From: Clostridiales bacterium
GTDB lineage: Bacteria > Bacillota > Clostridia > Peptostreptococcales > Anaerovoracaceae
Assembly (NCBI GenBank): GCA_022763735.1
Contig: JALEQY010000025.1
Coordinates: 1 to 55,130, forward strand
Length of the DNA: 55,130 nt
Direction: 5' to 3'
The notes under the pieces were generated by a model that saw only the letters and a list, made by a program, of their open reading frames with translations, did no database searches and was not told where the DNA came from. A program made the translations under genes and the position numbers. This document shows positions 3,859 through 19,649 of the stretch, in pieces. How positions within the stretch are numbered: the stretch's first letter is position 1; every line of letters starts with the position of its first letter.

Positions 3859-5595
3859 TTGAACAGTAAGAAGTACAAAGACGTATTATATAAAATGCGT
3901 TATATAAATGATCTGAGAGATCTTATCCGTTCCAGTGCTGAAATGTATGGAGATAAACCGGCCTTTCTGGAAAAAGATGTCGCGGGGGGAGAATACCGTC
4001 CTATTTCATACGTGCAGCTCAGAGAAGACATTGATTCTCTCGGAACAAAGTTTGTTGAAATGGGTCTGAAAGGCAAAAAGATTGCAGTCATTGGAGAGAA
4101 CAGCTACAGATGGGTTGTGACATATCTTGCTGTTACCAATGGAACAGGTGTTATAGTTCCTCTTGATAAAGAGCTTACTGAAATAGAGATCAGAAATCTC
4201 ATAAAAAGAGCAAAACCGGAAGCTATTGTTTTTTCAAACAAACTGGCTAAAAAAGTGATGGAATCTCTGGAAGGTCTCGATGATGGACCATCAGTAAAGA
4301 TATGCATGAAACCTTCAGAGGCTGGTGAAGGGGTTCTTAACTGGGATGAAATCAGATCAGAAGGAAAAACTCTGCTCCTTGGAGGAAACAGAGACTTTAT
4401 TGATGTGGTAATAGACAGAGAGGCAATGTGTGCACTGCTGTTCACATCAGGCACTACAGGCATGGCCAAAGGTGTAATGCTCTCACACAAGAATATCTCA
4501 GCAAATGTCTATAACATGTCAAAATATGTAAAAATCAGAAGCGGAGGAGGTCTTTCTGTGCTTCCGATGCATCATACATATGAACTTACTTGTCATGTCT
4601 TTACAGGTCTGTACCAGGGTATGTACATAGCCATCTGCGAGGGTCTAAGATATATACAGCAGAATCTGAAGGAATCAAAGGCTTCTGTAATGCTTGGAGT
4701 ACCTGCAGTATTTGAAACCATGCACAAGAAGGTATGGAAACAGGCTGAAGCATCAGGTCAGGCAGGCAAAATGAAGGCTATGATGAATCTGGCGCGAAAG
4801 ACAAAGCTGTATAATAATCAGGAGGTTATGCGCAAGATTTTCTCCAAGGTTCATACAAGTCTTGGCAATAATGTATCGCTGTTCATAGCTGGAGGCGCGG
4901 CAATAAATCCTGATGTAATCCGTGATTATGAAGCTCTCGGAATTCCGATGATACAGGGATATGGTATGACTGAAAATGCACCGATTATTGCCGTAAACAG
5001 AGACTATTACAGCAAAGCTGACTCCGTAGGCAAACCGATGCCGGGAACAGAGGTTAAGATAATAGACCAGGATGAGGACGGTATAGGCGAAATTATATGT
5101 CGTGGACCGTCAGTAATGATAGGATATTATGATGATCCGGAAGCAACAGCCGAAGTGCTCAAGGATGGATGGCTATATACAGGGGACTACGGCAGGCTGG
5201 ATGAAGAGGGGTTCCTTTATATATGCGGCAGGAAGAAAAATGTAATAGTAACCAAGAACGGTAAAAACATCTTCCCGGAAGAAATTGAAGCTCTTCTTCT
5301 TGAAAATCCTCTCATTGAAGAAGTTATGGTGTACGGCACTATCGATAAAAAGAATGATGATACAGTAGTAAAGGCTGAAATCTATCCATCATACGATGAA
5401 CTCGAAGCTCGTTTGGGAAGTGTTACCGAAGATGGTATCCAGGATGTTATCAAAGAAGCCATTGAAGAAGTGAATGATAAGATGCCGACATACAAGAGAG
5501 TTAAACGATTCAAGCTCAGGAGTGAAGAATTCGAGAAAACTACGACGAGAAAAATAAGAAGAACAGGCGGTGCTGTAAGAGAAGAGGAAGAATAA
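3859..5595 (+). CDS. AMP-binding long-chain acyl-CoA synthetase family protein
   Basis: A 578-residue adenylate-forming enzyme that activates a carboxylic acid with ATP, usually forming an acyl-CoA. Motifs in order: LFTSGTTGMAKG (phosphate-binding A3) near residue 195, GYGMTE (A5) near residue 370, YTGDYG (A7) near residue 439, and GRKKNVIVTKNGKNI (A8 hinge and catalytic lysine region) near residue 455. The layout matches the long-chain fatty-acid CoA ligase group. The start is TTG 3859, with AAGGAGG 8 bases upstream; the next ATG (3895) lacks such a site. It lies in the MurE-like/racemase cluster, and a deleted paralogue follows. The acid activated is unknown, so FadD is not claimed. Reliable as a family call. 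Confidence 0.85.
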   Translation: MNSKKYKDVLYKMRYINDLRDLIRSSAEMYGDKPAFLEKDVAGGEYRPISYVQLREDIDSLGTKFVEMGLKGKKIAVIGENSYRWVVTYLAVTNGTGVIVPLDKELTEIEIRNLIKRAKPEAIVFSNKLAKKVMESLEGLDDGPSVKICMKPSEAGEGVLNWDEIRSEGKTLLLGGNRDFIDVVIDREAMCALLFTSGTTGMAKGVMLSHKNISANVYNMSKYVKIRSGGGLSVLPMHHTYELTCHVFTGLYQGMYIAICEGLRYIQQNLKESKASVMLGVPAVFETMHKKVWKQAEASGQAGKMKAMMNLARKTKLYNNQEVMRKIFSKVHTSLGNNVSLFIAGGAAINPDVIRDYEALGIPMIQGYGMTENAPIIAVNRDYYSKADSVGKPMPGTEVKIIDQDEDGIGEIICRGPSVMIGYYDDPEATAEVLKDGWLYTGDYGRLDEEGFLYICGRKKNVIVTKNGKNIFPEEIEALLLENPLIEEVMVYGTIDKKNDDTVVKAEIYPSYDELEARLGSVTEDGIQDVIKEAIEEVNDKMPTYKRVKRFKLRSEEFEKTTTRKIRRTGGAVREEEE

Positions 5596-5621
5596 TCAAA
5601 AACTGAACAGGAGGTCCTGAT

Positions 5622-6309
5622 ATGACCAGTGAATACAAAGCGGTTAAGATGAAATGGGCTGAAGGTTTAGCGGCTGGAATTGAAGCGGATCAGCGTCAAT
5701 ATGTAAAATATAAAGAGAGCAGGCCTATCACGGATATCAAGCATATGATAGAAACAAGCGCGGAGCTCTATGGGGATAATACGGCATTCATGCAGAAAGA
5801 CAGAAATGACAGTCCGTATAGAAAAATTACCTACAGGGAGATGCTTGAAGATGTGAACGATCTCGGAACGGCACTTATTGCAAAAGGACTCAAAGGTAAA
5901 AGAATAGCTGTTATTGGTGAAAACTGTTATCAGTGGGCGGTATCATATCTGGCCGCTGTGTGCGGTACAGGCATTGTGGTTCCATACTGGAGACCTGGGG
6001 TATATTGATGATAATGGATATGTCTATATCACAGGGCGCAAAAAGAACGTGATTATTACGAAAAACGGCAAGAATGTTTATCCAGAGGAAATCGAGTATC
6101 TGCTTACAACTATATCGTTTGTGCAGGAGGCTTTTGTTTTTGAGCAGGACAGCAGCGATGCACAGGATACTGTTATAGCGACATCTATCAGAATGGATGA
6201 AGAGGCGCTGGGTGAAATCCTTGGAAGCGAATACAGAAAAACCGATTTTGTAAAGAATACTTCCAATAAACTGGTCAGGTTTGCAGAAGGGAATAAGAAG
6301 GAGGAGTAG
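5622..6309 (+). pseudogene. AMP-binding synthetase paralogue with internal deletions
   Basis: A broken copy of the preceding type of gene. From 5622 (ATG after AGGAGG) about 120 residues match its N-terminus, through GLKGKRIAVIGENCY to GTGIVVP. At about 5981-5986 the sequence jumps to HTGDLGYIDDNG, which matches position 439 of the paralogue, so about 340 codons are missing. The jump also changes frame: the upstream part stops at 6006-6008 and the C-terminal part runs on in another frame to 6309. A further in-frame gap of roughly 35 codons seems to lie before the last 28 residues. Both flanks are otherwise open, so the event is recent, or it is an assembly join between similar neighbours. No functional adenylating enzyme can be made. 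Confidence 0.85.
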
Positions 6310-6318
6310 AATTCAATC

Positions 6319-7413
6319 ATGGTAAAATACAGCAGAAATCCGAAGCTTGTAGTGGATCTCAGCAAATTGAGAAATAATATTTCCAGGATACAGAGAATGT
6401 GCCATGATAAAGGTGTTGAAGTGGCAGGTGTTATTAAAGGGTGTACAGGAATACCTGAGTGTGCTGAACAGTTTGAATATGCAGGCTGCAGTTTTATTGC
6501 ATCGTCCAGGCTTGAACAGCTGGAGCCACTCAAAGCACATGGCATTCAGAATCCTCTGATGATGATAAGGATTCCATCACTCACAGAGGTCCCGGACGTT
6601 ATCAGGATAACTGATATAAGTCTTAACAGTGAACCTGAAGTCCTCGAGGCTCTAAATAAGGAGGCAGGCAGACAGGACAGAAATCATAAGGTGATTCTGA
6701 TGGCTGACCTTGGTGACCTGAGAGAAGGCTTTTGGGATAAAGATGAGATGGTGGAAACTGCTCTCAGAGTTGAATACGAGATGCATAATCTCACTCTCGC
6801 AGGTGTCGGAACAAACCTCGGATGTTATGGAGCAATCGCACCAACACCTGAAAAGCTTCAGGAGCTTGTTGATATAGCAGAAAGAATAGAGTCAGAGATA
6901 GGCAGGGAATTGGAATTTATTTCAGGAGGAGCCACAAGCTCACTTCCTAGGATCATTGAAGATAATCTGCCGCCAAGAGTCAACATGCTCAGAGTAGGTG
7001 AAGGGATATTGCTTGCAAAGGATCTTCAGGATCTGTGGGGATATGATATGAGTTACATGCATAAGGATGTATTTACACTCAGAGCAGAGGTCATCGAAGT
7101 GAAGGATAAACCTACTCATCCTGTGGGTGAAATAATGTTTGACGCTTTTGGCAATAAACCTTCATATGAAGACAGAGGTATCAGGAAACGTGCGCTTATA
7201 GGTCTTGGCAAAGTCGATTATGCATTTCCTGAGGATCTTATTCCAAGAATGAAAGGAATATCAGTGATAGGAGCCTCAAGTGATCATACGATTCTTGATG
7301 TGGAAGATGCCGAGTGTGAAGTGCATGTAGGAGATATAATTGAATTTGACCTGAGCTATTCGACGATGGTTTATGTGACGAATTCAAATAATATCGAGAA
7401 AGTATTTATTTAA
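6319..7413 (+). CDS. Alanine/ornithine racemase family PLP enzyme
   Basis: A 364-residue type III PLP enzyme of the alanine/ornithine racemase family, interconverting L- and D-forms of an amino acid in the cytoplasm. The PLP lysine is expected at K40 in GVIKGCTG, and SGGATSSLP near residue 203 and MLRVGEGIL near residue 225 form the phosphate-binding side of the barrel. It resembles clostridial ornithine racemase more than alanine racemase, and lacks the long C-terminal beta domain of Alr. ATG 6319 has GGAGG 12 bases upstream, right after the pseudogene, and a bidirectional terminator follows. In this cluster it could supply a D-amino acid to the MurE-like or ATP-grasp ligases (inference). 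Substrate unproven. Confidence 0.85.
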   Translation: MVKYSRNPKLVVDLSKLRNNISRIQRMCHDKGVEVAGVIKGCTGIPECAEQFEYAGCSFIASSRLEQLEPLKAHGIQNPLMMIRIPSLTEVPDVIRITDISLNSEPEVLEALNKEAGRQDRNHKVILMADLGDLREGFWDKDEMVETALRVEYEMHNLTLAGVGTNLGCYGAIAPTPEKLQELVDIAERIESEIGRELEFISGGATSSLPRIIEDNLPPRVNMLRVGEGILLAKDLQDLWGYDMSYMHKDVFTLRAEVIEVKDKPTHPVGEIMFDAFGNKPSYEDRGIRKRALIGLGKVDYAFPEDLIPRMKGISVIGASSDHTILDVEDAECEVHVGDIIEFDLSYSTMVYVTNSNNIEKVFI

Positions 7414-7421
7414 GTATGCAT

Positions 7422-7463
7422 AAAAAAAGCGGATATGCACATTGTGTATATACCCGCTTTTTT
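7422..7463. terminator. Bidirectional intrinsic terminator
   Basis: An A-run, a GCGG stem and a complementary CCGC arm followed by TTTTTTT form a symmetrical hairpin between the racemase gene (+) and the HAD phosphatase gene (-), so it can end transcription from both sides. Both genes finish within 10 bases of it. Confidence 0.85.
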
Positions 7464-7469
7464 GAAATT

Positions 7470-8108
7470 CTATAATAGTTCTTCGAAGCTTTCGATATAT
7501 CTGTCGGCAAGGGCTTTGATTTCTTCTTTGTTTTCTTTTTCGCTTTCATCAGCTACTGCTATAACATAGAAGCCTGCTTCTTTAGCGCCGCTGATGGCCA
7601 GTATGCCGTCTTCGAAAACCACTGTCTCCTCTTTAGGTGTTCCGAGGAGCTTGTGTGCATTTTCAAAAACTTCCGGGTCAGCCTTGCCGCCTCCTGATTC
7701 TTCACATGTGACGATATGGAAGAAATAGTCTCTGATCCCGAGACGAGCCAGAATCTCATCGGCGATTTCTTTATCTGTGGAAGTTGCAACGCACATCTGG
7801 ATGCCCTTCTGTTTGAATTTCTCAAGAATAATGGGAACGTATTCTTTGATATCCACACTTGCCAGATAATCTTCACGTATTATTGTGTTAAAGCCTTTTG
7901 CTATTTTTTCTTCCGTAGTTGCGATTCGGTAGGTTTCTTTAAGGTATCTGCAAAGCTCAGGAAGAGTCATGGCTTTTGTCTTATCTCCCAGATCAGATTC
8001 AGGTGTTTTGCGTAAAGAAGTTATATATCTGCTGGCAGCGCCGCGCCACATTTCTGCTGAATCAAGAAGTGTGCCGTCCATATCAAAAATTGCACCGCTG
8101 ATTTTCAT
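7470..8108 (-). CDS. HAD-superfamily hydrolase, phosphoglucomutase-like subgroup
   Basis: A 212-residue HAD phosphatase. The N-terminal motif IFDMDGTLLDS holds the nucleophile and acid/base aspartates, ATSTDK is motif II, K of GGGKADPEVF is motif III, and FEDGILAI is the acidic motif IV. A helical cap between motifs I and II is typical of the beta-phosphoglucomutase/phosphoglycolate phosphatase group. I used ATG 8108 because AAGGAGG lies 9 bases before it, although the frame stays open upstream. It is transcribed alone from its own promoter, divergent from greA, and stops at the bidirectional terminator. Substrate cannot be predicted. Confidence 0.85.
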   Translation of the reverse strand: MKISGAIFDMDGTLLDSAEMWRGAASRYITSLRKTPESDLGDKTKAMTLPELCRYLKETYRIATTEEKIAKGFNTIIREDYLASVDIKEYVPIILEKFKQKGIQMCVATSTDKEIADEILARLGIRDYFFHIVTCEESGGGKADPEVFENAHKLLGTPKEETVVFEDGILAISGAKEAGFYVIAVADESEKENKEEIKALADRYIESFEELL

Positions 8109-8768: not shown

Positions 8769-10790
8769 ATGCATTGGGCGGAAAAAATAGCAGACCGGAT
8801 AATCAGAAAGAATCCCGATAAAGAAGAATATGTCTGCGCTGCAGGGATAAGCCCTTCAGGCTCTATCCATATCGGCAACTTCAGAGATATTGCAACTAGC
8901 TTGTTTGTTGCCAAGGCACTTATCAAAAAAGGCAAGAAAGCAAGGCTTCTGTTCTCATGGGACGAATATGACAGATTCAGGAAAGTTCCTGCTAATGTCA
9001 AGGCTATTGATCCCGAAAACAAAATGGAACAATATATTGGAAGACCATATACTGACGTACCTAACCCGTTTGATACTGAACATGAGAATTATGCCAAGTA
9101 TTTTGAAGCTGAGTTTATGGAATCCATCAAGAAGTTCGGAATAGAGATGGATTACAAGTATCAGACTGAAATGTACACATCAGGAAAGTACAAGGATGAT
9201 ATCATTGAAGCAATAAAGAAGAGAAAAGAAATCTTTGATATCCTTGACAGCTTCCGTACACAGGATGCAGAGGAAGGCGAAAGAGATGCATATTTCCCTG
9301 TAAGCATTTTCTGTCCTGAATGTGGTAAGGATACAACTAAGATTGTTTCGATTTCCGATGACTGCACTGTTGCAGAATATGAGTGTGAGTGCGGACATAA
9401 AGGCACGTTCAACTTTACATCAGACTTTAACTGCAAGCTTGCCTGGAAGGTTGACTGGCCGATGAGATGGAGATATGAAGGTGTTGACTTCGAACCGGGC
9501 GGTAAGGATCACGCAAGCCCTGGTGGCAGCTATGAGACAAGCAGCGTAATCAGCAGGAAGATATTCAACTGGGAGCCTCCAATGTTCCAGGGATACGAAT
9601 TCATCGGAATCAAAGGCTCAACAGGTAAGATGTCTGGATCTTCAGGTCTTAACCTTACTCCGGAAACTCTGCTCAAAATATATGAGCCGGAAATCATCTT
9701 ATGGCTGTATTCGAAGACAGACCCTAAGAAGGCATTTGATTTCTGCTTTGATGACGGTATCCTTCGCCAGTACTTTGAATTTGACAAGATGTATAACGAC
9801 TATATGAATGGTACGGCAAATGAGCATAACACTTCAGTAATGGAATACAGCCTTGTAGAAGGTCACACCATCAAGACTGTTCCGATGGGATTACTGGTTC
9901 AGCTGGGATCCATTGTAGACTTCAATGTTCCAATGATGGAAACAGTATTCGAGAAGATTGGAACTCCGTACAAATATGAAGAATTCGATACAAGACTTGA
10001 GCTTGCCAAGTACTGGTTGTACCAGTGTGCTCCGGAAACAGCAAATAAGCTGAGAGGCTGGAGAGACTGGGATTTCTATAACACATTTACAGATGATGAG
10101 AAAAAAGAAATCGCTCTCCTCTACGATTTTATCAAAGAGGGAGATTATGATCTGGATTCGCTCAATACCAAGCTTTATGACATTCCTAAGGAAGTGTTCG
10201 GAGCTGATATCGAGAATCTCAAGCAGGTGCAGGGCGAGTTCTTCAAGAAGGTGTACAAGCTCCTTATCAGCAAGGAAAGAGGACCGCGTCTCTATCTGTT
10301 CCTTTATGCTATAGATAAAGAAAGATTCATGCATCTGCTGGACTTCAGCTTCCCTAAGACAGAGGAAGAAGAAGCTCTTGAGAAGGCTGCTCTTGAAGCG
10401 GAAAAGGAACCTGAAGTGGTCAAGGTCTATGGTGAACCTGATGAGGTCAAGCCTATAGTTGAACCTGAAATCACTACTGATCAGTTCTTCGCAATGGACC
10501 TGAGAGTCTGCAAGATTCTGAAGTGTCAGGAAATCAGGAAGGCTCACAGCAACTATAAGCTTACTCTCTTTGACGGAATCAAGGAAAGAGTAATCGTTTC
10601 GAGCATCAAGAATGATTACAAGCCTGAGGAACTGGAAGGCAAGAAGATCATCGTGGTTGCAAATCTGGCACCTGCAAGACTTACAGGTGTTACCAGTGAA
10701 GGTATGCTTCTGGCAGGAACAAATAATGCATGCGGATGTCAGGTCATCTTCGTGGATGATATCGTTCCTGAAGGGACTAGAATCTGCTAA
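8769..10790 (+). CDS. lysK: Class I lysyl-tRNA synthetase with tRNA-binding tail
   Basis: A 673-residue lysine-tRNA ligase of the class I (archaeal/spirochaete) type, unrelated in fold to the common class II LysS. The HIGN motif is in GSIHIGNF near residue 33 and the KMSKS-equivalent is KMSGS at K287. A four-cysteine zinc finger (CPECG, later CECG) lies near residue 180-205. The last 108 residues, from about 566, form an extra tRNA-binding (Trbp111/EMAP-II-like OB-fold) domain, with MDLRVCKIL and VVANLAPARLTG, as found at the end of bacterial MetRS. An acidic Glu-rich linker precedes it. Class I LysRS is normally about 500-550 residues, so this is a fusion. It occupies the usual class II lysS position after greA. 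Confidence 0.93.
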   Translation: MHWAEKIADRIIRKNPDKEEYVCAAGISPSGSIHIGNFRDIATSLFVAKALIKKGKKARLLFSWDEYDRFRKVPANVKAIDPENKMEQYIGRPYTDVPNPFDTEHENYAKYFEAEFMESIKKFGIEMDYKYQTEMYTSGKYKDDIIEAIKKRKEIFDILDSFRTQDAEEGERDAYFPVSIFCPECGKDTTKIVSISDDCTVAEYECECGHKGTFNFTSDFNCKLAWKVDWPMRWRYEGVDFEPGGKDHASPGGSYETSSVISRKIFNWEPPMFQGYEFIGIKGSTGKMSGSSGLNLTPETLLKIYEPEIILWLYSKTDPKKAFDFCFDDGILRQYFEFDKMYNDYMNGTANEHNTSVMEYSLVEGHTIKTVPMGLLVQLGSIVDFNVPMMETVFEKIGTPYKYEEFDTRLELAKYWLYQCAPETANKLRGWRDWDFYNTFTDDEKKEIALLYDFIKEGDYDLDSLNTKLYDIPKEVFGADIENLKQVQGEFFKKVYKLLISKERGPRLYLFLYAIDKERFMHLLDFSFPKTEEEEALEKAALEAEKEPEVVKVYGEPDEVKPIVEPEITTDQFFAMDLRVCKILKCQEIRKAHSNYKLTLFDGIKERVIVSSIKNDYKPEELEGKKIIVVANLAPARLTGVTSEGMLLAGTNNACGCQVIFVDDIVPEGTRIC

Positions 10791-10797
10791 ATATGGG

Positions 10798-10826
10798 TTG
10801 ACAAAGAGTCACACGTATGATAGTTT
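10798..10826 (+). promoter_or_regulatory. Promoter of the first cobalamin riboswitch
   Basis: TTGACA at 10798-10803, a 17-base spacer and TAGTTT at 10821-10826. It starts 8 bases after the LysRS stop codon and no terminator separates them, so LysRS read-through may also enter the riboswitch. Confidence 0.55.
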
Positions 10827-10844
10827 ATAGGTACAATTTAATCA

Positions 10845-11012
10845 CTCCGATGTTCTGCGGCGTCTGCTGCAGCTAAGAGGGAATCCGGTGTGAATCCGGA
10901 GCGGACCCGCCACTGTAATTCAGGAGTTTACGATTATGCCGGTCAGGTAGCCACTGAGAAATCGGGAAGGTGATCGTGAACGATGATTGATAAGTCAGGA
11001 GACCTGCATCAG
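10845..11012 (+). ncRNA. Cobalamin riboswitch 1 (RF00174 type)
   Basis: The core blocks of the B12 aptamer are present in order: AAGAGGGAATCCGGTG, GAATCCGGAGCGG, CCCGCCACTGT, then GCCACTGAGAAATCGGGAAGG and finally the B12 box AAGTCAGGAGACCTGC at about 10991-11006. These match the canonical consensus closely. A terminator hairpin follows at 11074, but the next sequence is not a gene; it is another riboswitch module. Boundaries are approximate. Confidence 0.93.
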
Positions 11013-11073
11013 GAGAATATCAATCCACGGGAAACTGGTTTATTGATGAGAATATGAATTTGTTCAGAAATAC

Positions 11074-11104
11074 GGACTGTACTTGATAGTGCAGTCCTTT
11101 TTTT
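11074..11104 (+). terminator. Terminator after riboswitch 1
   Basis: GGACTGTAC and GTGCAGTCC pair (one G-U) around a TTGATA loop and are followed by seven T residues. It probably is the expression platform of riboswitch 1, yielding a short RNA of about 270 bases when it terminates. Confidence 0.8.
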
Positions 11105-11120
11105 ACAGATATTTCAATAT

Positions 11121-11190
11121 GCCTTTTCATCCGCAGGGACAGATATGTAAAAAAGCTAAGACAACTTATATATCTTCCCTGCTTCCTTTT
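11121..11190 (+). repeat. Hairpin repeat, copy 1
   Basis: A roughly 70-base element nearly identical to 11652-11720. GCAGGGA (11133-11139) pairs with TCCCTGC near its end, an inner GATAT pairs with ATATC, and the 3' side runs into TTCCTTTT. The unpaired middle AAGACAACTT is conserved between copies. It sits just after a riboswitch terminator. It could be a second terminator or an unrecognised structured RNA. The roughly 170 bases that follow, up to the next promoter, hold no gene I can support. Confidence 0.7.
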
Positions 11191-11359
11191 TGTGACACCA
11201 TAATGTTCCTCTTTCAGAGGAGATAAGTAAATAATAAATGCAGTAAGACAGGATATAAAGGTTCAGGTACATGTAATAACATTGATTGTATAAGCTCTGT
11301 ATATTCTGTTTTACTTTAGAGAGGATAATGAGTTTATAGATTGGAGGATGAAAAGACAG

Positions 11360-11388
11360 TTGACATATGAGGGATAATTGAGTAAAAT
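11360..11388 (+). promoter_or_regulatory. Promoter of the second cobalamin riboswitch
   Basis: TTGACA at 11360-11365, a 17-base spacer and TAAAAT at 11383-11388, about 25 bases ahead of the aptamer. Confidence 0.75.
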
Positions 11389-11411
11389 GCAATTATAAAC
11401 TGAATATTGTG

Positions 11412-11590
11412 AGAAATGATATTTTCGGAAGCCGGTGAAATTCCGGCGCTGTGTCTCAGCAACCGTGATATCTACGAACGGATTGGCGAAGCAGAGGTCA
11501 TAACGGACCCTGTCAAAGCAAGTCACTGGAGTATAACTCTGGGAAGGCATCCAAGTAGGATTGATGATTAAGCCGGTAGACCTGTCATTC
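11412..11590 (+). ncRNA. Cobalamin riboswitch 2 (RF00174 type, variant core)
   Basis: The order of blocks is that of a B12 aptamer: GGAAGCCGGTGAAATTCCGG, then CAGCAACCGTGA in place of the usual CGCCACTGT, GTCACTGG, CTGGGAAGGC, GATGATTAAGCC and the B12 box form GGTAGACCTGTC. It is much closer to riboswitch 3 than to riboswitch 1, so 2 and 3 arose by duplication. No gene follows; its terminator is at about 11603-11628. Confidence 0.88.
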
Positions 11591-11602
11591 CTTTAATCGT
11601 AA

Positions 11603-11628
11603 GTCTTCTGAGGTAAGACAGCGCTTTT
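11603..11628 (+). terminator. Terminator after riboswitch 2
   Basis: GTCTT and AAGAC form a short stem around CTGAGGT, with AGCGC and seven T residues after it. A competing pairing of CTGTC in the B12 box with GACAG of this segment is possible. The stem is weak, so the call is moderate. Confidence 0.55.
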
Positions 11629-11651
11629 TTTATTACCCGGATTATTAAAAC

Positions 11652-11720
11652 GCCTTTTCATCCGCAGGGACAGATATGTGTAACGCCAAGACAACTTATA
11701 TATCGTCCCTGCTTCCTTTT
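11652..11720 (+). repeat. Hairpin repeat, copy 2
   Basis: Second copy of the element at 11121-11190. Here the stem is one pair longer (GCAGGGAC with GTCCCTGC) while the loop has changed, so pairing is kept with covariation at one position (C pairs with G here, C faces T in copy 1). The sequence after both copies is also related (AAAT-ATAAATGC), showing that the duplicated unit includes hairpin, promoter region and riboswitch. Confidence 0.7.
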
Positions 11721-11766
11721 ATAAGCCGATATTTTGTCGCAGATAGTATGTAAATCATAAATGCGG

Positions 11767-11795
11767 TTGACAGAATATTGTTAATTATTTAAAAT
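11767..11795 (+). promoter_or_regulatory. Promoter of the third cobalamin riboswitch and B12 operon
   Basis: TTGACA at 11767-11772, 17 bases, TAAAAT at 11790-11795. This is the likely main promoter for the genes from 12144 onward. Confidence 0.8.
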
Positions 11796-11828
11796 GTAAG
11801 TACAAGTGGATACTTTAGGAATTGACAT

Positions 11829-12012
11829 TTTTGGAAGCCGGTGAAAATCCGGCACTGTGTCTCAGCAACCGTGATATCTACGAACGGATTGGCGAAACAG
11901 TGATCGTTACCGATCATGTGAAAGCAGACCACTGGGGTCGTAAACTCCGGGAAGGTGTCCAAGTAGGAAGCAGGATGAATATACATTCAGATGATTAAGT
12001 CGGTAGACCTGT
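11829..12012 (+). ncRNA. Cobalamin riboswitch 3 controlling the B12 uptake operon
   Basis: Same variant core as riboswitch 2: GGAAGCCGGTGAAAATCCGG, CAGCAACCGTGA, ACCACTGG, CCGGGAAGGTG, GATGATTAAGTC and GGTAGACCTGTC. The DUF4430 lipoprotein gene starts 132 bases after it, behind a terminator and a visible antiterminator, which fits B12-triggered premature termination. Confidence 0.9.
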
Positions 12013-12031
12013 CAGTTCATGCATCGTAAGT

Positions 12032-12109
12032 CTTCTGAGGTGGGACCTGTTGTGATTCTTATTAAGTTGTCAGCACATCAGAAGCGGAATATAGTATTCG
12101 GCTTTTTTT
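12032..12109 (+). terminator. Riboswitch 3 expression platform: antiterminator and terminator
   Basis: The terminator is AGC-G-GAATA (12083-12091), loop TAG, TATTC-G-GCT (12095-12103), then T residues to 12109. Upstream, CTTCTGAGGTG (12032-12042) can pair with CACATCAGAAG (12074-12084) at 10 of 11 positions, and this pairing takes up the 5' edge of the terminator. Ligand-bound aptamer would favour the terminator and shut off the B12 uptake genes. Confidence 0.75.
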
Positions 12110-12143: not shown

Positions 12144-12782
12144 ATGCGAGGAGACAGCAAAGGCAGAAGGGTTCGGAGGATAATACCGATTGCAGTAATG
12201 ATAATGATAGCAGTACTGACATCTTTTATGATTATATCATGCGGAAGCAATGATACAGCAGGGACAGATACTGCAGCATCTGAAGAAGCGTCTGCAGTAC
12301 AGAATGAGGCAAAAGCTGAAAAGAAAAAAGAAAGTAGTAAACAGTCAGATACAGAGAAACCTCAGGAAAAAGCTGAAACTGAGGGAACAACTGCAAAGGC
12401 TGTTTCAAAGAAAAGTACAAGCAGTGCAGTTAACACAAAAAGCACCACTAAATCGAATAAATCGTCCGCAAAAGAAACAAAAAAATCAACTCAGGCTGCA
12501 AAGGTATGCTATATAAGTATAGAAGGTTACTGCAGCAGTAAGAAGATAACAATGAAAAGCGGAGACACTGTGTACGATATACTTAAGAGATCAGGTGCCA
12601 GCGTAAGTGCCAGAAACAGCGGATACGGAGTATATGTTGAAGGAATTAACGGGAGGTACGAGTTTGACGAAGGTCCTTCCAGCGGGTGGGTATATTATGT
12701 CAATGGCAGTGAGCCAAACACAAGCTGCGGCAATTATAAAGTGAGCAGTGGAGACAATATCGTCTGGGATTATGTTAAATAG
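12144..12782 (+). CDS. DUF4430 (transcobalamin-like) lipoprotein
   Basis: A 212-residue secreted lipoprotein. A basic N-terminus and hydrophobic stretch end at the lipobox IISC (Cys about residue 33), so it is anchored to the outer face of the membrane. Residues about 35-125 are a low-complexity linker rich in Ala, Glu, Lys, Ser and Thr. The C-terminal 90 residues are a DUF4430 domain, the fold of the C-terminal domain of intrinsic factor and transcobalamin; GDTVYDILKRSG and SGWVYYVNG are its hallmarks. ATG 12144 has TGGAGG upstream. It is the first gene behind the cobalamin riboswitch, so it is probably the corrinoid-capturing subunit for the ECF transporter encoded next. Domain call strong; ligand inferred from context. 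Confidence 0.85.
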   Translation: MRGDSKGRRVRRIIPIAVMIMIAVLTSFMIISCGSNDTAGTDTAASEEASAVQNEAKAEKKKESSKQSDTEKPQEKAETEGTTAKAVSKKSTSSAVNTKSTTKSNKSSAKETKKSTQAAKVCYISIEGYCSSKKITMKSGDTVYDILKRSGASVSARNSGYGVYVEGINGRYEFDEGPSSGWVYYVNGSEPNTSCGNYKVSSGDNIVWDYVK

Positions 12783-12807: not shown

Positions 12808-13704
12808 ATGAAACAAATGCGCAGTGTTTTTTCAACTTATCATCCTGTAATCAACTTCGGTTTTTTCTGTGTAGTCATCGGAACAGGTATTTTTATGAGA
12901 CATCCGGTTTTCCTGACGGCAGCAGTTATTGCAGCACTGACATATTCAGTAATGCTTGGTGGAAAAGGCACACTCAGGTTTGTAATATGCTTCATAATAC
13001 CGATGATTCTGATTTTTACAGTGGTAAATCCGCTTGTCAATTCCAGAGGTGAGACGGTACTGTTTTATACGAAATACAGTCAGGTGACTATGGAAGCAGT
13101 AATTTACGGTCTTCTTGCAGGCTTTATGCTCGCGGCTGTTCTATTATGGTTTTCATGTTATAACAGAATAATGACAAGTGATAAGTTCGTATACCTGTTC
13201 GGCAGAATAATGCCTGCGGTCTCACTGATATTTTCTATGGTTATGAGATTTGTACCGAATTTTAAAATGCAGATTGTAAAAATCTCAGATGCACAGAAAT
13301 GTATAGGAAGGGATGTTTCCAATGGAAACTGGATGCAGAAAGCCAGACACGGAATTAAAATCATGTCCATAATGCTGACATGGGCTCTGGAAAATGCTAT
13401 AGATTCTGCTGATTCCATGAGGTCACGAGGATATGGTCTTAAAAACAGGAGCACTTTTTCTATTTACAGATTTGACAGGAGAGATGCTTCAGCTGCAGTT
13501 TTTCTCTCTGTCATGTCAGTTATTGTTCTGATTGCGGCAGCAGCGGGAAAATGTACAATTGAATTTTATCCGGAGATTGTTATGTCAGATTTTGACCTGA
13601 TGACATCCATAGCATGTGCATCATATATTATGATCTGTTTTTTTCCTGTTGCGGTTGAATTAAAGGAGGTGGCGGTATGGAAACATTCTCGGTCAGGAAT
13701 CTGA
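12808..13704 (+). CDS. ecfT: ECF transporter transmembrane subunit EcfT
   Basis: A 298-residue membrane protein, the scaffold subunit that couples ATP hydrolysis to tilting of the substrate-binding S component. About six hydrophobic segments are visible (for example near residues 13-30, 60-75, 95-115, 235-255, 265-285), and the diagnostic coupling-helix motif appears in ADSMRSRGYG near residue 205 (Ala-Arg-Gly). The gene is 26 bases after the DUF4430 lipoprotein and its end overlaps the following ATPase/S-component fusion gene by 28 bases, so they are translationally linked. It is under cobalamin riboswitch 3. Likely a dedicated (group I) T subunit for B12. Confidence 0.9.
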   Translation: MKQMRSVFSTYHPVINFGFFCVVIGTGIFMRHPVFLTAAVIAALTYSVMLGGKGTLRFVICFIIPMILIFTVVNPLVNSRGETVLFYTKYSQVTMEAVIYGLLAGFMLAAVLLWFSCYNRIMTSDKFVYLFGRIMPAVSLIFSMVMRFVPNFKMQIVKISDAQKCIGRDVSNGNWMQKARHGIKIMSIMLTWALENAIDSADSMRSRGYGLKNRSTFSIYRFDRRDASAAVFLSVMSVIVLIAAAAGKCTIEFYPEIVMSDFDLMTSIACASYIMICFFPVAVELKEVAVWKHSRSGI

Positions 13705-16274
13705 CATTCACATATCCGGGAAAAGTCAGACCGGCACTTTCAGATATCAGTTTTAATGTTAATCCGGGAGAATTCATCGTAATCTGCGGACAGTCGGGAT
13801 CAGGCAAGAGTACATTGCTCAGAAATCTGAAACCTGTACTTGCCCCTCATGGTGAAAAAACAGGAGAAATACTGTTCTGCGGCAGAAATATAGATACACT
13901 TGATCAGGAAATACAGGCTTCAGGGATCGGATATGTTCTGCAGAACCCCGACAGCCAGATAGTTACAGATAAGGTCTGGCATGAACTGGCTTTCGGCCTT
14001 GAGAGCCTTGGGATGGATACGAAGACGATACGTCTGAGAGTTGCGGAAATGGCAAGTTTTTTCGGAATACAGACATGGTTTCACAAGGATGTAAATCATT
14101 TGTCAGGCGGACAGAAACAGCTGCTTAATCTGGCATCTGTAATGGCTATGCAGCCTGATGTCCTGATTCTTGACGAGCCTACATCACAGCTGGATCCTAT
14201 AGCAGCAGGAGATTTTCTGGAGACAGTAAGAAAGATAAACAGGGAGCTTGGCACTACAGTTATACTGACAGAACACAGACTGGAAGATGTCATACCTATG
14301 GCGGACAGAGCAGTGGTTATAGATAATGGCAAAGTGATTGCAGATGATATCCCTGCAAATGTCGGAGCGATTCTTGCACAGCTTGGTCATCCGATGTTTA
14401 TGGCTATGCCGACTCCCTTGCAGGCGTATTCCATTTTATATCAGGAAAATACAGGCCGTGATCTGACGTGTCCTGTAAATGTACGTGAGGGCAGGAACTG
14501 GCTTACAGAACTCCTTGACGGCTGCAGTATCACCAAAACTTCATTGCCGGATGACAATGAAGTCAGTGAATCTCAGGAACCTGTAATCGAGATGAAGGAT
14601 GTATGGTTCAGGTATGAACGTCAGGGTGATGACGTTATCAAGGATCTTTCATTCAAAGTTTATCCGGGGGAACTGTTCTGCATGGTAGGTGGAAACGGAA
14701 CCGGTAAAACAACAACGCTTACTCTGGCAGGCGGTATTAACAGACCTTATCGCGGCACGATAAAAATTAAGGGAACGCCGTTAGATAAATATAAAAAGAA
14801 GGATCTGTTTAGAGGAATTCTGGGAATGCTTCCGCAGAATCCTCAGACTCTTTTTGTGGAGAAGACTGTAAAAGCTGATCTTATAGAAAGTTTTGAAGGA
14901 TCAGATATGACAGATGATCAGAAAGAAGCACGTGTTATGGAGATCGCAGAAGTTGTGAAGATTAATGAACTTCTGGATATGCATCCGTACGATCTGTCTG
15001 GTGGAGAACAGCAGCGTGCGGCTCTGGCGAAAGTGCTTCTTATGAAGCCTGAGATTCTGTTTCTGGATGAGCCTACAAAGGGTCTTGACAATGAGTTCAA
15101 GTTCAGGCTTGCAGGTATACTCAGGGATATTCGCAACAGAGGCGTGACCATAGTCATGGTATCCCATGATATTGAGTTCTGTGGAAGGTATGCTGACAGA
15201 TGTGCAATGTTTTTCGACGGAAAGATAATAACGGTAAATACTCCGAGGAAGTTCTTTTCCGGAAACAGCTTCTACACTACAGCTGCCAACAGAATGTCAA
15301 GGCATGTGTTTGAGAATGCGGTAAATGTGGATGATATCGTTGAGCTTGTCAGGATGAACAAATGTCAGGGAGGAAACGGAGAAAGCAGCAGCGGCTCTGA
15401 TGGTGATACTGGCGTAGGCGGATATGACGGTTTCAGTGCAGAGAAAATACTGCTTAAGGAACACAGAAATACAGTTTCAGTTGATGTTGCAGGAGTCATG
15501 GAAGATAAGCTGGATAAATCGGTTAAAACCGATATATATGATAAAGAAAAAAACGTTCTGAAAACAAAAAGACCGGCTGGTCAGGTGGCTCTGGAACTTG
15601 TAATGGCAGTTCTTGCTGCAGTTACGATATATGTAGGATTCTATGTGTTCGATAACAGGCAGTATGTGGCGGTGTGTATTCTGCTTATAGTGTATGCGAT
15701 GGTTCCTTTTTTTGTCGGTTTTGAACGCAGAAAGCCCAAAGCCAGAGAGATAGTTATTCTTGCGGTGTTGATAGCAGTGGCGACTGCAGGAAGAGCAGCT
15801 TTTTTCATGTTACCTAATTTCAAGCCGGTGCTGGCAATAGTTATAATATCCGGAGCTGCACTTGGCAAGGAAAGCGGATTTCTGGTGGGTGCAATGTCTG
15901 CTTTTGTTTCGAACTTCCTGTTCGGACAGGGCCCGTGGACGCCATGGCAAATGATTGCAATGGCTGTTGTCGGATATCTTGCCGGACTTATTTTCCACAG
16001 ATGTCCGGATAAGTTCAGGAAAACAGGGCTTGTGGTTTTCGGAGCAGTGGCGGCTTTTGTTATATACGGACTTATAGTGGATCTGTGGACGATACTGGTC
16101 ATGACGCCGGATCCTACATGGGAAACGGCGATTATGGTATATTCTGCTGCAGTATATTTCAATCTGATACATGCGGCGGCGACTGTAATATTCCTGCTTC
16201 TTCTTGCGAAACCAATGATCGGGAAGCTGGATAGAGTCAAGCTCAAATACGGTATGAGTGTATTTGAAGCCTGA
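13677..16274 (+). CDS. ECF transporter fusion: EcfA-EcfA'-S component (B12 type)
   Basis: An 865-residue single-chain fusion of two ABC ATPases and a membrane S component. The first ATPase has Walker A GQSGSGKST (about residue 38), signature LSGGQKQ and Walker B LILDEPT; the second has Walker A GGNGTGKTT (about 338), LSGGEQQ and LFLDEPT. A Ser/Gly-rich linker near 570-585 and a charged stretch lead to about six transmembrane helices from residue 635, with LPNFKPVLAIVIISG and GPWTPWQ, which resemble CbrT-like B12 S components. It starts at ATG 13677 after GGAGG, overlapping ecfT. ATPases and substrate-binding subunit are normally separate proteins, so the fusion fixes one S component to its motor. 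Cobalamin as substrate follows from the riboswitch and DUF4430 context. Confidence 0.88.
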   Translation: METFSVRNLTFTYPGKVRPALSDISFNVNPGEFIVICGQSGSGKSTLLRNLKPVLAPHGEKTGEILFCGRNIDTLDQEIQASGIGYVLQNPDSQIVTDKVWHELAFGLESLGMDTKTIRLRVAEMASFFGIQTWFHKDVNHLSGGQKQLLNLASVMAMQPDVLILDEPTSQLDPIAAGDFLETVRKINRELGTTVILTEHRLEDVIPMADRAVVIDNGKVIADDIPANVGAILAQLGHPMFMAMPTPLQAYSILYQENTGRDLTCPVNVREGRNWLTELLDGCSITKTSLPDDNEVSESQEPVIEMKDVWFRYERQGDDVIKDLSFKVYPGELFCMVGGNGTGKTTTLTLAGGINRPYRGTIKIKGTPLDKYKKKDLFRGILGMLPQNPQTLFVEKTVKADLIESFEGSDMTDDQKEARVMEIAEVVKINELLDMHPYDLSGGEQQRAALAKVLLMKPEILFLDEPTKGLDNEFKFRLAGILRDIRNRGVTIVMVSHDIEFCGRYADRCAMFFDGKIITVNTPRKFFSGNSFYTTAANRMSRHVFENAVNVDDIVELVRMNKCQGGNGESSSGSDGDTGVGGYDGFSAEKILLKEHRNTVSVDVAGVMEDKLDKSVKTDIYDKEKNVLKTKRPAGQVALELVMAVLAAVTIYVGFYVFDNRQYVAVCILLIVYAMVPFFVGFERRKPKAREIVILAVLIAVATAGRAAFFMLPNFKPVLAIVIISGAALGKESGFLVGAMSAFVSNFLFGQGPWTPWQMIAMAVVGYLAGLIFHRCPDKFRKTGLVVFGAVAAFVIYGLIVDLWTILVMTPDPTWETAIMVYSAAVYFNLIHAAATVIFLLLLAKPMIGKLDRVKLKYGMSVFEA

Positions 16275-16303: not shown

Positions 16304-18376
16304 GTGGTTAAAATCAGACGAAAAACATTATCTTTTGTTATTGTGCTGGCAATGATGCTGACGACAGTGTTCGCAGGAACTGCCGGGGCTTCATACGCAG
16401 CGGAAAACGGGACTGAAGGCGGACTTCTCTGGTACTTCAAAGACAGTACAGGAACAGCAATGACAGGTGTGTCAGCCCCTGCAGCGGATGGAAACTTCGT
16501 TTTTATGGCATCCGGGAATACCTTATATAAATTTGATGCAGCAACTGGTGAAGTGCTGGCGAAAGCGGAACTGTCAGGAAGCGTCGGATACAATAAAATT
16601 GCTCCGACTGTTGCTGATGGGAAAGTATTTGTACCGCTGGGAGCATCGAAACTTGATATTATCGATGAGGAGACAATGGTTTCTCTTGAAAACGTGCAGT
16701 ATGCCGACGCGAAGCTGCAGTCCGGTCATCAGAGTCTTACGCCTGCTGTTTACAGTAAAGAGGACAATGCCGTATATCTGGGGTCATGGCGACCACTGAG
16801 GGCAGATGCTGATTTTCCGGGAGGAACTTATGCCAAGGTTTCACTTGATGACTACACAGTGACGAAAATCACAGATTCGGTTAATCTCGACCTTGATGGT
16901 GATGGTAAAAATGAAAAAACAGGCGGATTCTACTGGGCAGGTGCGTGTGCATATGGTGATTATGTGGTATTCGGTTCTGTTTCAAACGGCACAAACGATG
17001 CCAATACACCATCAGATGGCAATGCAGTACTTTATGCTTATGATAAAATAACCGGTGAAGTGATAACTGAAGTGCTTGAGGATTCAGGCAGTATATGTTC
17101 AACTGTGGTATATAATGGTGGAAAATACTATTTCACCGGCAAAGCAGGAAATCTGTATGAAGCTACAATAGCAGATGGAAAAATTCAGGCTGAAGTGAAA
17201 GCGAAACTTGCAGGTCCGTCAACGTGCACCCCTGAAATTGCTGACGGCAAAGCTTATGTCGGATCATACATATCCAGAACAGAAGGCTGCGTTCAGGCAG
17301 TGAATCTTGACAGCGGAGAAATTACTGAGACATATGAAACTCCTGCAGATGCCAAATACATTATGCTGTCAGGAGATAATATCTACTGTACATATAATGG
17401 TTATCCTGGCGGCATATATGATGTGAAGGCAGGAATAAATTATTTCACGCCGGCGAGCGGCATGCAGAACTATTGTATTTCAGGGATATCTGCAGGAAAT
17501 GACGGTGTGATGTACTACACCAATGACAGCAATCATCTGATGGCTGTCGGAAATTCAGAGAATTTGATTAACGTTCAGTGGGAGTCTGCTGACGGCAGCG
17601 GCAATATTGCGCCCATAAAGTATACCGGATCGGAACAGACGCCTAAATTTACAGTGACATACAAGGGAAAAGTTCTGGGCAATACTGAATACAGAGAGGA
17701 ATTTGCAGACAACAAGTATCCGGGCACGGCAGCACTGACTGTAAGAAGTGAAAGCTATCCCGGAATTGTAATCAAAGAGTTTACAATAAATGAACCTGTT
17801 GTCACTGCTCAGAAAACCGTCACAGCTGAGCTAACACCGGAAAGCGGTTATGATGATGTGACTGTGAAATGGAGTACACAGAAAGTGGAAGGGACAACTG
17901 TCAGGTATAAAGTTGAATACCAGAAGTACGGAGGATCTTGGAATATTGCAGCAAGCAGTGCAAACGGTTCTTCTACGAAAAAAATGAATCTTTCGGATGG
18001 AGTCAGGTATCGCTTTAAAGTCACACCATTCGTAAAGGTAAATGGCAATACGTATTCAGGCGATTCAAAAACGACAGGATATGTATACACTTTAAAAGCT
18101 GTGAAGAAACCTTCGGTGAAAAAATACTCGTCTTCTTATGTAAAAGTAAGCTGGAACAAAGTGAACGGAGTATCAGGGTACAAAGTATACAGATCAAAAT
18201 ATTCAACAAAGAATTTCAAGCTTGTGAAGACAGTGTCATCGTCATATGCTTATGCAAAAATAAAGACCTCGAAAAATGCGAAGTATTATTATAAAGTAAG
18301 ACCGTATAAGAAAATCGGCACAAAATATGTTTACGGTCCATTGTCGTCAGCAAGCAGTTCATTCACATTAAAATAA
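16304..18376 (+). CDS. Secreted PQQ-like beta-propeller protein with Fn3 domains
   Basis: A roughly 690-residue exported protein. A basic start, a hydrophobic core and an Ala-rich cleavage region (ASYAAEN, about residues 25-31) form a signal peptide. Residues about 40-430 hold repeated blades of the type YKFDAATGEVLA, YAYDKITGEVI and AVNLDSGEI, as in PQQ/BamB-like propellers, with an EF-hand-like DLDGDGKNEKTGG near 198. About 505-690 hold two fibronectin type III-like domains. No wall-sorting signal is seen. The start is unsure: GTG 16304 lies inside the AAAGGGAG ribosome site, and the best-spaced codon is ATC 16313. Between the ECF genes and a sortase-anchored DUF4430-like gene, it may be an extracellular part of the corrinoid capture system (inference). 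Confidence 0.75.
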   Translation: MVKIRRKTLSFVIVLAMMLTTVFAGTAGASYAAENGTEGGLLWYFKDSTGTAMTGVSAPAADGNFVFMASGNTLYKFDAATGEVLAKAELSGSVGYNKIAPTVADGKVFVPLGASKLDIIDEETMVSLENVQYADAKLQSGHQSLTPAVYSKEDNAVYLGSWRPLRADADFPGGTYAKVSLDDYTVTKITDSVNLDLDGDGKNEKTGGFYWAGACAYGDYVVFGSVSNGTNDANTPSDGNAVLYAYDKITGEVITEVLEDSGSICSTVVYNGGKYYFTGKAGNLYEATIADGKIQAEVKAKLAGPSTCTPEIADGKAYVGSYISRTEGCVQAVNLDSGEITETYETPADAKYIMLSGDNIYCTYNGYPGGIYDVKAGINYFTPASGMQNYCISGISAGNDGVMYYTNDSNHLMAVGNSENLINVQWESADGSGNIAPIKYTGSEQTPKFTVTYKGKVLGNTEYREEFADNKYPGTAALTVRSESYPGIVIKEFTINEPVVTAQKTVTAELTPESGYDDVTVKWSTQKVEGTTVRYKVEYQKYGGSWNIAASSANGSSTKKMNLSDGVRYRFKVTPFVKVNGNTYSGDSKTTGYVYTLKAVKKPSVKKYSSSYVKVSWNKVNGVSGYKVYRSKYSTKNFKLVKTVSSSYAYAKIKTSKNAKYYYKVRPYKKIGTKYVYGPLSSASSSFTLK

Positions 18377-18390
18377 TAAAGGAGAAAAGT

Positions 18391-19419
18391 ATGAGAAAGA
18401 GAATATCAAGGAAATTTGCAGCAGTTCTGGCCTTATCAATGATATTATCATGCATGATGGTGCCTTCAGCTGTTTTTGGAGGAGAAGCCGTTTCTGCTGA
18501 TATTACTGTCATTGCAAACGGAATTCCGGATAAGGATGATCCGTATGTGATAAGGAATATCAGAGTGTATTCCGATTCTGCTGAAAAGGAAGGTTATACG
18601 GATGAAGGTGGCAATAGCATAGAAACTGTTAAAGACAAGGTTACCTGTATGGATGCACTGGTTGCCCTCCATGAAAAAGTCTATGGAAATGAATTCAAAG
18701 CATCACCGGAAAAATATCTCGGTTTTGAAGAGAGCTCTTATGGCGGTTTAATGGTTGTCAGGATGTTCGGCATTGAGAATCCGGCAATGATGTCATATGT
18801 CAATAATGCCGATTCCGGAGTAAGCATTGACAGTACTGTTCTTGGGGAAGGCGACTTATTCAGACCGTTTATTCTGAAAGATAATGCTGCGTGGTCAGAT
18901 AAGTATCTTTTCTTTGATGAACTTGATTATTCAGCTGAAGAAGGTGAAATGATCAGTATAAATCTTTTTGAGGCTGGATATGATTCAAACTATCAGTCAG
19001 TTGCTTTTCCTCATAAGGGAAGAACGGTGGTTCTGAAATCAGAAGATGGCGAAACTGTAAAATCTGATGAACCTACTGATGAAAATGGCAAGGTGGTATT
19101 CGATAATCTGAAGGCAGGAAAATACGTTGTGTCGGTGGAAGCCTTTTCAGACACTGACTATTTTGCAATGCCGTGGGCAGAAGTTTCTGTTTCTGAAAAA
19201 ACTTCAGATAATCCTTCTGCAATAGAGGATATAGATGAAGATAATGATGGCGGAGAAAAAGCATCCAAGCCGGAAAATAATCAGGAATCAGATGCTGAGA
19301 CCAGAGGAAATGAAGCTTCGCCTGCAACAGGAGACAGTTTCAGTCCGGTTTTGGCCGGGATTATCGCAGTATTAGCTCTTGCAGCAGCTGCAGCAGTTAC
19401 ATTGAGAAAGAGAATATAA
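18391..19419 (+). CDS. Sortase-anchored DUF4430-like surface protein
   Basis: A 342-residue surface protein. The signal peptide covers about residues 1-31. Residues about 35-160 resemble a DUF4430/transcobalamin C-terminal-like domain (TCMDALVALHEKVYG, MMSYVNN, LGEGDLF). Around 205-250 is a small beta domain of Cna-B/carboxypeptidase-regulatory type (DENGKVVFDNLKAGKYVV). An acidic linker precedes SPATGD, then a hydrophobic helix and RKRI: a wall-sorting signal of the (S/P)PxTG type known from Clostridioides difficile sortase. ATG 18391 has GGAG six bases upstream, 14 bases after the propeller gene. It is the last gene before a terminator. It likely binds corrinoid at the wall and hands it to the lipoprotein and ECF transporter (inference). 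Confidence 0.75.
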   Translation: MRKRISRKFAAVLALSMILSCMMVPSAVFGGEAVSADITVIANGIPDKDDPYVIRNIRVYSDSAEKEGYTDEGGNSIETVKDKVTCMDALVALHEKVYGNEFKASPEKYLGFEESSYGGLMVVRMFGIENPAMMSYVNNADSGVSIDSTVLGEGDLFRPFILKDNAAWSDKYLFFDELDYSAEEGEMISINLFEAGYDSNYQSVAFPHKGRTVVLKSEDGETVKSDEPTDENGKVVFDNLKAGKYVVSVEAFSDTDYFAMPWAEVSVSEKTSDNPSAIEDIDEDNDGGEKASKPENNQESDAETRGNEASPATGDSFSPVLAGIIAVLALAAAAAVTLRKRI

Positions 19420-19467
19420 TGTATATGAGGACCTCGGAATTTATCTGATACGGTCAGTTCGAGAAAA

Positions 19468-19506
19468 GCAGTTCAGAATTAAGCATTTAAAACTGAACTG
19501 CTTTTA
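19468..19506 (+). terminator. Terminator of the B12 operon
   Basis: GCAGTTCAG (19468-19476) and CTGAACTGC (19493-19501) pair perfectly and TTTT follows. It closes the operon that starts at the third riboswitch. Confidence 0.8.
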
Positions 19507-19523
19507 TAATAGAAGAAAATAAG

Positions 19524-19551
19524 TTGACAAAAAGTAAAAATATGGTAAAAT
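19524..19551 (+). promoter_or_regulatory. Promoter of the VaFE surface-protein gene
   Basis: TTGACA at 19524-19529, 16 bases, TAAAAT at 19546-19551. The roughly 100-base leader after it shows no riboswitch motif, so the surface protein is controlled separately from the B12 operon. Confidence 0.7.
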
Positions 19552-19649
19552 TAGAAAATAAAGGTGGGGTATATAAATAAGGCATCCGGTGTCAGAGAGA
19601 TCCGGCTTTGCATTAGCAGTGTCAGATGATCGGACAGAAGGAGGCAATT

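Follow-up and report, generated by a model that had tools for sequence, protein, structure and literature searches.

A tandem cobalamin riboswitch array in an Anaerovoracaceae genome and a repeated element that may yield base-pairing RNAs

Our analysis of a 55,130-nt stretch of Clostridiales DNA (contig JALEQY010000025.1, hereafter the window) points to an array of three B12-repressed units, namely P1-RS1-T1-E, P2-RS2-E and P3-RS3-T3-operon, of which the RNAs made from the repeated element E would act in trans, a reading whose chances we put at about even. Directly visible in the DNA are the aptamers, the promoter-like sites, two copies of E, the duplication that relates modules 2 and 3, and the complementarity of E to ribosome-binding regions. 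Together these suggest, short of proof, that modules 1 and 2 serve as small RNAs, switching off genes of B12-dependent amino-acid fermentation when B12 is short. More broadly, and with confidence slightly short of even, we propose that E typifies a family of B12-riboswitch-controlled base-pairing RNAs in Anaerovoracaceae, which would mask ribosome-binding sites in the mRNAs for corrinoid methyl transfer and for the fermentation of lysine and ornithine; the array would then be a dosage device with two E-RNA units and one uptake unit.

An Rfam search of the window at gathering scores recovered exactly three matches, all to RF00174 and all on the forward strand (Table 1; gathering score 31.5 bits), and a permissive threshold returned the same three. 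This bears out a preliminary description of the same DNA, made from the letters alone, which had recognized three tandem cobalamin riboswitches, no supported gene between the first and the third, and a gene only after the last. The layout is that of a tandem array, with at least two complete aptamers of one class, one gene downstream and none between: the three open reading frames of at least 60 aa inside 10,833–12,030 are all antisense, 65–79 aa long and devoid of Pfam matches, and the DUF4430 gene lies downstream of module 3, its likely start being, by reading, the ATG at 12,144. A 75-nt element, E, comes after module 1 and again after module 2, and the DUF4430/ECF operon after module 3. That genes once lay between the modules, as was also suggested, found no backing: no remnant was detected in the gap or by Pfam, a comparison of 11,191–11,400 with the loci collected by then gave nothing significant (best E-value 0.068), and in a relative (G031) module 1 and E directly precede a DUF4430 gene, which is followed by a CbiQ-type gene. 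Two features go beyond the earlier account, namely the spacer repeat E (copy B is a 91% copy of copy A) and the presence of two aptamer subtypes.

Table 1. Features of the cobalamin riboswitch array and the adjoining operon (window coordinates).
Feature	Position	Strand	Evidence
Promoter P1: TTGACA-N17-TAGTTT, TG preceding -10	10798..10826	+	9/12; layout recurs in G031 and G029 (by reading)
Module 1 cobalamin riboswitch aptamer, ordinary subtype	10833..11025	+	RF00174, 113.3 bits; 82% over 313 nt to G031
Module 1 P13 hairpin, loop CGGG complementary to L5 CCCG	11020..11046	+	sequence and fold; putative kissing loop
Module 1 intrinsic terminator	11074..11104	+	terminator scan
Element E copy A: GCCUUUUCAUCC + hairpin + U-rich tail	11121..11196	+	repeat, hairpin; R1 71.4 bits; 6 U in first 8 tail nt
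Promoter P2: TTGACA-N17-TAAAAT	11360..11388	+	11/12
Module 2 cobalamin riboswitch aptamer, subtype 2	11400..11603	+	RF00174, 51.9 bits; alignment
Module 2 P13 hairpin, loop CUGAGGU complementary to L5 GUCUCA; U-run 11625-11631	11603..11619	+	weak as terminator
Element E copy B	11652..11726	+	repeat, hairpin; R1 62.2 bits; 6 U in first 8 tail nt
Promoter P3: TTGACA-N17-TAAAAT	11767..11795	+	11/12
Module 3 cobalamin riboswitch aptamer, subtype 2; Rfam match overlaps P3	11787..12030	+	RF00174, 43.6 bits
Module 3 P13 hairpin, loop CUGAGGU	12030..12046	+	alignment
Probable module 3 terminator: one stem mismatch, U-run	12081..12109	+	fold; absent from scan output
DUF4430 gene, lipoprotein-like start	12144..12782	+	PF14478, E-value 2.6e-19
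Probable ECF T component	12808..13704	+	no family match; same-place gene in G031 matches CbiQ, PF02361
ECF transporter: two ATPase domains fused to S component	13677..16274	+	domain matches

The DUF4430 protein is a candidate corrinoid binder, and the top relative of the ECF protein is found in JAUNDC010000021.1 (76%). The upstream neighbor of the array (8769–10,790) is a class-I archaeal-type lysyl-tRNA synthetase with a MetG-like C-terminal tRNA-binding domain, and the ECF genes are followed, at 16,304–22,235, by large surface-type proteins that carry fn3, SpaA, thioester and T-Q ester bond domains.

The preliminary description had further assigned each module its own promoter and terminator, and this survives in part. 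P2 and P3 are near-perfect; P1 combines a perfect -35 with a weak -10. The promoter scan returned 10 promoter-like sites versus 4.4 in shuffles; sites matching at least 11/12 number four on the forward and two on the reverse strand of the whole window, and of 1000 mononucleotide-shuffled versions of the region 0.1% contain two or more. As for terminators, that of module 1 is canonical and that of module 3 imperfect (a mismatched hairpin with a U-run), but that of module 2 is unconvincing, comprising a 5-bp hairpin (−3.1 kcal/mol) 5 nt before the U-run. An expression platform of its own is thus clear in module 1, plausible in module 3 and weak in module 2. The terminator scan reported the module 1 site alone, with a shuffle mean of 0.9, and the count by itself proves nothing. 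A long-range helix beside the module 2 U-run appeared in one fold and was dropped, as it was not seen to be kept across the subtype alignment. At six loci of relatives (L128–L133; the next gene is confirmed as CbiD in three) a promoter-like sequence, TTGACG-N17-TAGATT or the like, separates E from the next gene, whose transcription may then start there and bypass the riboswitch.

Modules 2 and 3, a duplicated pair, represent a divergent subtype, here termed subtype 2, and module 1 is an ordinary aptamer; the subtypes differ in the L5/L13 pair, the B12 box and the P6–P7 region. The L5 and L13 loops are complementary in all three modules, and both are invariant among 12 subtype-2 sequences, hence no covariation is seen there. 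A kissing-loop role for this pair is described, in the part of the source available, for the P. megaterium metE corrinoid riboswitch, where L5–L13 is coupled to P13 and a terminator, as may be so here; the L5 consensus there is UCCCG, whereas subtype 2 has GUCUCA with CUGAGGU (PMC10653944). Between modules 2 and 3 the identity is 12/12 in the promoter hexamers, 8/17 in the promoter spacer, 59/61 in the core and 23/35 in P6–7, which folds into a hairpin in both. Among 41 consensus pairs, 28 are unchanged, 9 are kept with one side changed, none is changed on both sides and 4 are broken in at least one copy.

Module 1 together with E copy A is 80.6% identical over 402 nt to its counterpart in G031. 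Since module 1 and E stand there directly before a DUF4430 gene, modules 2 and 3 look inserted; the simplest history would be the insertion of a subtype-2 unit followed by its duplication, with loss in G031 as the alternative. In relatives, subtype 2 precedes CbiD (Pfam-confirmed in L128, L130 and L133) and other genes. On conservation of the array in relatives, a point raised in the preliminary description, a one-mismatch pattern found no second genome with two subtype-2 cores within 1.5 kb among the 49 genomes of the genus. Other same-strand RF00174 pairs closer than about 1.9 kb were absent from 41 genus genomes except G022, under strict filters that lose weak matches. G022 itself carries tandem cassettes (L136, G022:C4:49000-59000, 5408–7661), in which three B12 riboswitches of type 1 are spaced by about 1031 nt and have DUF4430 and zf-like genes between them. 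Another locus (L137, G000:C124:5000-20000) is a mirror-image contig with two divergent aptamer pairs of equal score and mirrored open reading frames around a CbiK-like gene (below the NCBIfam cut-off) and a permease; this layout is either an assembly artefact or a recent inverted duplication.

Element E has no Rfam match at either copy up to an E-value of 5. Its conserved strand, CCUUUUCAUCC, is kept almost letter for letter, with the variants UUUUCAUCU present in three genomes (G002, G017 and, at the C31 locus, G029). Among the loci collected at that stage, 21 of 22 distinct strings of the form G[CT]CTTTTCATCCGC have a same-strand B12 box whose start is 64–185 nt upstream. The hairpin stem is 92.2% paired, falling to 32–52% when slid, and 15 cells of the stem alignment are changed on both sides versus 5.4 in shuffles (0/500); in this alignment, A1, one row (L126) is poorly aligned. 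Stem pairs with change on both sides (4 vs 2.5, reached by 31/500 shuffles) and pair types (11 vs 9.6, reached by 106/500) are not significant. A plain intrinsic terminator everywhere was rejected as a description of E: the 8 nt that follow the stem contain just 3 U in 6 of 26 copies, against 6 in the window copies. This count omits two doubtful copies (L228, L229) and two partial reverse rows.

A model of E built from 20 copies (R1; its E-values are rough) was searched against draft assemblies and found E in 35 of 349 genomes of the family at an E-value of at most 1e-4, 27 of them among the 49 of the genus. Most matches (35/38) lie 3' of a same-strand B12 aptamer, with the aptamer upstream of E in G065 assigned through its B12 box and subtype-2 core. 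The distance from aptamer to E is 31–181 nt in 33 cases and 587 nt in one, beyond a tandem repeat, and is slightly overestimated where the aptamer match ends early. The matches not counted are those in G450 and G514 and one hairpin read in reverse; the first two were rejected as E, having no same-strand aptamer just upstream, and that in G514 looks coding. A weaker match (19.9 bits) does follow the G450 aptamer. Among 247 genomes of the order, all matches outside the family had E-values of at least 2.6e-4, and of ten loci from this search scanned for aptamers three had one, all within the family. Two species of another genus (G247 and G373) have E between two B12 riboswitches. A literature search for the letters of E found none, though absence from the open literature is no proof; a search on Anaerovoracaceae with riboswitches yielded nothing related, judged by title, and E was not found in the available portions of work on riboswitches with aminomutases.

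Some individual E loci have further peculiarities. In L223 (G495:C48, about 1550–2060) some six copies of an 83-nt tandem repeat separate the B12 riboswitch from E, and this repeat contains GTTGCCTTTTTGCC, which resembles the start of E. In L052 and L125 the complement of the E strand stands directly 5' of E (GGATGAAAA or AGATGAAAA, matching the E variant), possibly forming a second hairpin in this subset.

The preliminary description had proposed to look for complementarity between the short RNAs and mRNAs. The conserved E strand is indeed exactly complementary to sites before B12-linked genes, but 18 of the 27 genus genomes with E have no target of the exact form. The complement, GGATGAAAAGG, occurs at six exact places in the organism's own genome. 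Two are E itself, one is found 8 nt upstream of the gene for an MttB-type methyltransferase, itself preceded by a CobW-like gene, one lies 7 nt before a KDD/sigma-54 regulator, and the remaining two are away from gene starts. Across the genus, GGATGAAAAGG followed by ATG within 2–12 nt gave 70 rows in 31 of the 49 genomes, and the reversed control 6. These comprise 67 distinct contexts, 45 of which fall within same-strand open reading frames of at least 100 aa and 6 of which are E read backwards. The other 16 precede KDD/sigma-54 regulators (4; G000, G001, G003, G031), Ord (2; G016, G031), PrdR-like sigma-54 regulators (3; G007, G008, G064), MttB (1; G000), YjeF-MazG genes (3; G020, G021, G069) and other genes (2; L269, L316), with one lacking a nearby start (L311). 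Thus, 10 of the 16 stand before a KDD/sigma-54 regulator, Ord, a PrdR-like regulator or MttB. Ord denotes 2,4-diaminopentanoate dehydrogenase (NCBIfam match above the cut-off; the KDD match is below it), L261, L309, L288, L283 and L289 were identified by similarity, and relatives of the PrdR-like regulator adjoin Ord in G016 and G031. Two further contexts, which the rule had placed inside open reading frames owing to an in-frame upstream start, are counted by our judgement: a site 8 nt before lysine 2,3-aminomutase (G020, with the same context in G069) and one 12 nt before a fifth KDD regulator (G010).

AdoCbl-dependent aminomutases take part in the fermentation of lysine and of ornithine, and MttB has a corrinoid protein as its partner; the sites therefore mark a coherent B12-linked set. 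Before the 16 target starts examined, the perfect complement to E spans 11–15 nt and lies 7–12 nt upstream in 11, 1 nt in 3, and 55 and 91 nt in the other two. In the KDD leaders of G000, G010 and G031 the 11-mer is common and the surroundings are little alike. The 11-mer also resembles a ribosome-binding site, so that such positions are favored, and it codes for common residues. The sites were gathered by exact search for the complement, and the tally hence covers site-bearing genes alone. E is carried by 9 of the 12 target-site genomes versus 27 of 49 overall, a co-occurrence that is not decisive; the other three (G001, G007, G020) have no R1 match at 1e-4. As MttB was found in only 1 of the 49 genomes, its site is not checkable in the others. 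Beside these sites, we observed that the YjeF_N-MazG fusion genes (L279, L288, L296) have a 14–15-nt exact complement to E, and the frame just upstream of them has an end similar to that of the zf-like gene that L227 carries behind a B12 riboswitch and E. In L135 (G029:C96, about 4475), a B12 riboswitch and E precede a gene that resembles, by reading, lysine 2,3-aminomutase; this kamA-like gene has no site.

With sufficient corrinoid, each unit of the proposed array would stop early, so that no E is made and the uptake operon stays off. Under corrinoid scarcity, units 1 and 2 would read through to E and may terminate there, by means of its hairpin and U-rich tail; the E RNA would pair through CCUUUUCAUCC with mRNAs of B12-linked fermentation, hiding their start sites; in the organism's own genome the predicted targets are the KDD/sigma-54 regulator and the MttB-type methyltransferase. 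Unit 3 would turn the corrinoid-uptake operon on in cis, polymerases passing E would add to its transcription, and two E units would give a higher RNA dose. The preliminary description had raised B12-responsive RNAs from modules 1 and 2 acting in trans; the complementary sites lend this more weight, with the change that the active part would be the E portion of the read-through, low-B12 form.

Against this reading, several relatives have E close before a gene, which would suit a cis element, and the target search relied on exact matching and so covers those KDD, KamA and Ord genes that bear the site. The site-less kamA-like gene in G029, the three target-site genomes with no R1 match at 1e-4 and the 18 E-bearing genomes with no target of the exact form count on the same side. 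A purely cis-acting array, in which three attenuated promoters in series feed the uptake operon and E is merely part of the leader, strikes us as rather unlikely, though it has precedent: 26 tandem AdoCbl doublets and a tandem pair with an internal promoter are described in the available part of a survey (PMC9481103), and in genus g43 a riboswitch-E-riboswitch pair precedes the next gene. We modelled the output with a read-through of 0.8 or 0.05 and equal promoters, purely as an illustration. A promoter per module gives a maximum of 1.95, a 37-fold range and an effective Hill coefficient of 1.05, compared to 0.80, 16-fold and 1.00 for one unit, and 0.51, 4093-fold and 1.24 for one promoter with three switches in series; letting module 1 bind 30 times tighter gives a Hill coefficient of 0.78. 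The higher induced level (1.95 vs 0.80) favors the cis array, and the steep dose response that the preliminary description had considered is not expected in this model with a promoter per module. A cis array, however, leaves unexplained both the nearly letter-for-letter conservation of the E strand and the coherent set of complementary sites.

That E and the GGATGAAAAGG sites are instead some other signal (cis structure, processing or protein binding) with incidental complementarity appears improbable. The complement of the E strand directly upstream of E in L052 and L125 would fit it, as would the facts that the sites were found by searching for that complement and resemble ribosome-binding sites; but chance would hardly place an exact 11-nt match in front of several genes that are unrelated yet belong to linked pathways, and the sole cis pairing tried, between the E strand and its own aptamer core, was discarded as not significant, being the best duplex in 16 of 25 leaders yet equalled by 17 of 200 12-mer shuffles. 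It is unlikely, too, that the subtypes sense different corrinoids or concentrations and so widen the range, which would be compatible with the other readings: their differences in the L5/L13 pair, B12 box and P6–P7 region speak for it, but corrinoid riboswitches are described as broadly sensitive in the accessible portion of PMC9600662. Very improbable is that modules 1 and 2 are duplication left-overs and module 3 alone matters. Module 2 does lack a canonical terminator, and none of the other genomes among the 49 shares the subtype-2 pair, but modules 2 and 3 have retained their promoter hexamers and cores, and the module 1 terminator is canonical.

Riboswitch RNAs with non-coding outputs are already known; what is new here is a B12 array with putative base-pairing E units. 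The following comparisons draw on the parts of PMC8079631 and PMC9481103 that were available. In Listeria, a B12 riboswitch controls the non-coding RNAs Rli55 and AspocR (PMC8079631), and, as is proposed here, the long form, produced when B12 is absent, holds B12-related catabolism in the off state. Rli55, however, sequesters EutV via ANTAR elements and AspocR acts on pocR, whereas here we propose pairing with the ribosome-binding sites of several distant mRNAs (PMC8079631). The riboswitch RNA SreA base-pairs in trans with prfA mRNA and blocks translation, as is proposed here, but its ligand is SAM and its short terminated form acts, in contrast to a low-ligand read-through form acting through the separate element E (PMC8079631). 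As with SreA, a conserved strand is complementary to mRNAs near the start codon, this having been established by exact search among site-bearing genes only. The tandem (pseudo-cooperative) AdoCbl riboswitches similarly line up complete B12 riboswitches ahead of a single gene; that survey names doublets and, in the part available, no triplets, whereas here there are three, of two subtypes and with a promoter each (PMC9481103). Desulfobacca acetoxidans has three AdoCbl switches in clusters separated by ORFs, and the C. botulinum adenine/T-box(Tyr) tandem likewise has a promoter between its two regulatory RNAs but responds to different ligands, as opposed to one ligand class and three units here (PMC9481103).

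If the proposal is true, a corrinoid-short cell would stop making pathways beyond its means to run. One vitamin signal would then have two opposite outputs, with uptake turned on and B12-dependent catabolism turned off, by RNA alone through base pairing. This would also explain the retention of switches that lead to no gene, and the E motif and its predicted targets are open to covariation and reporter tests.
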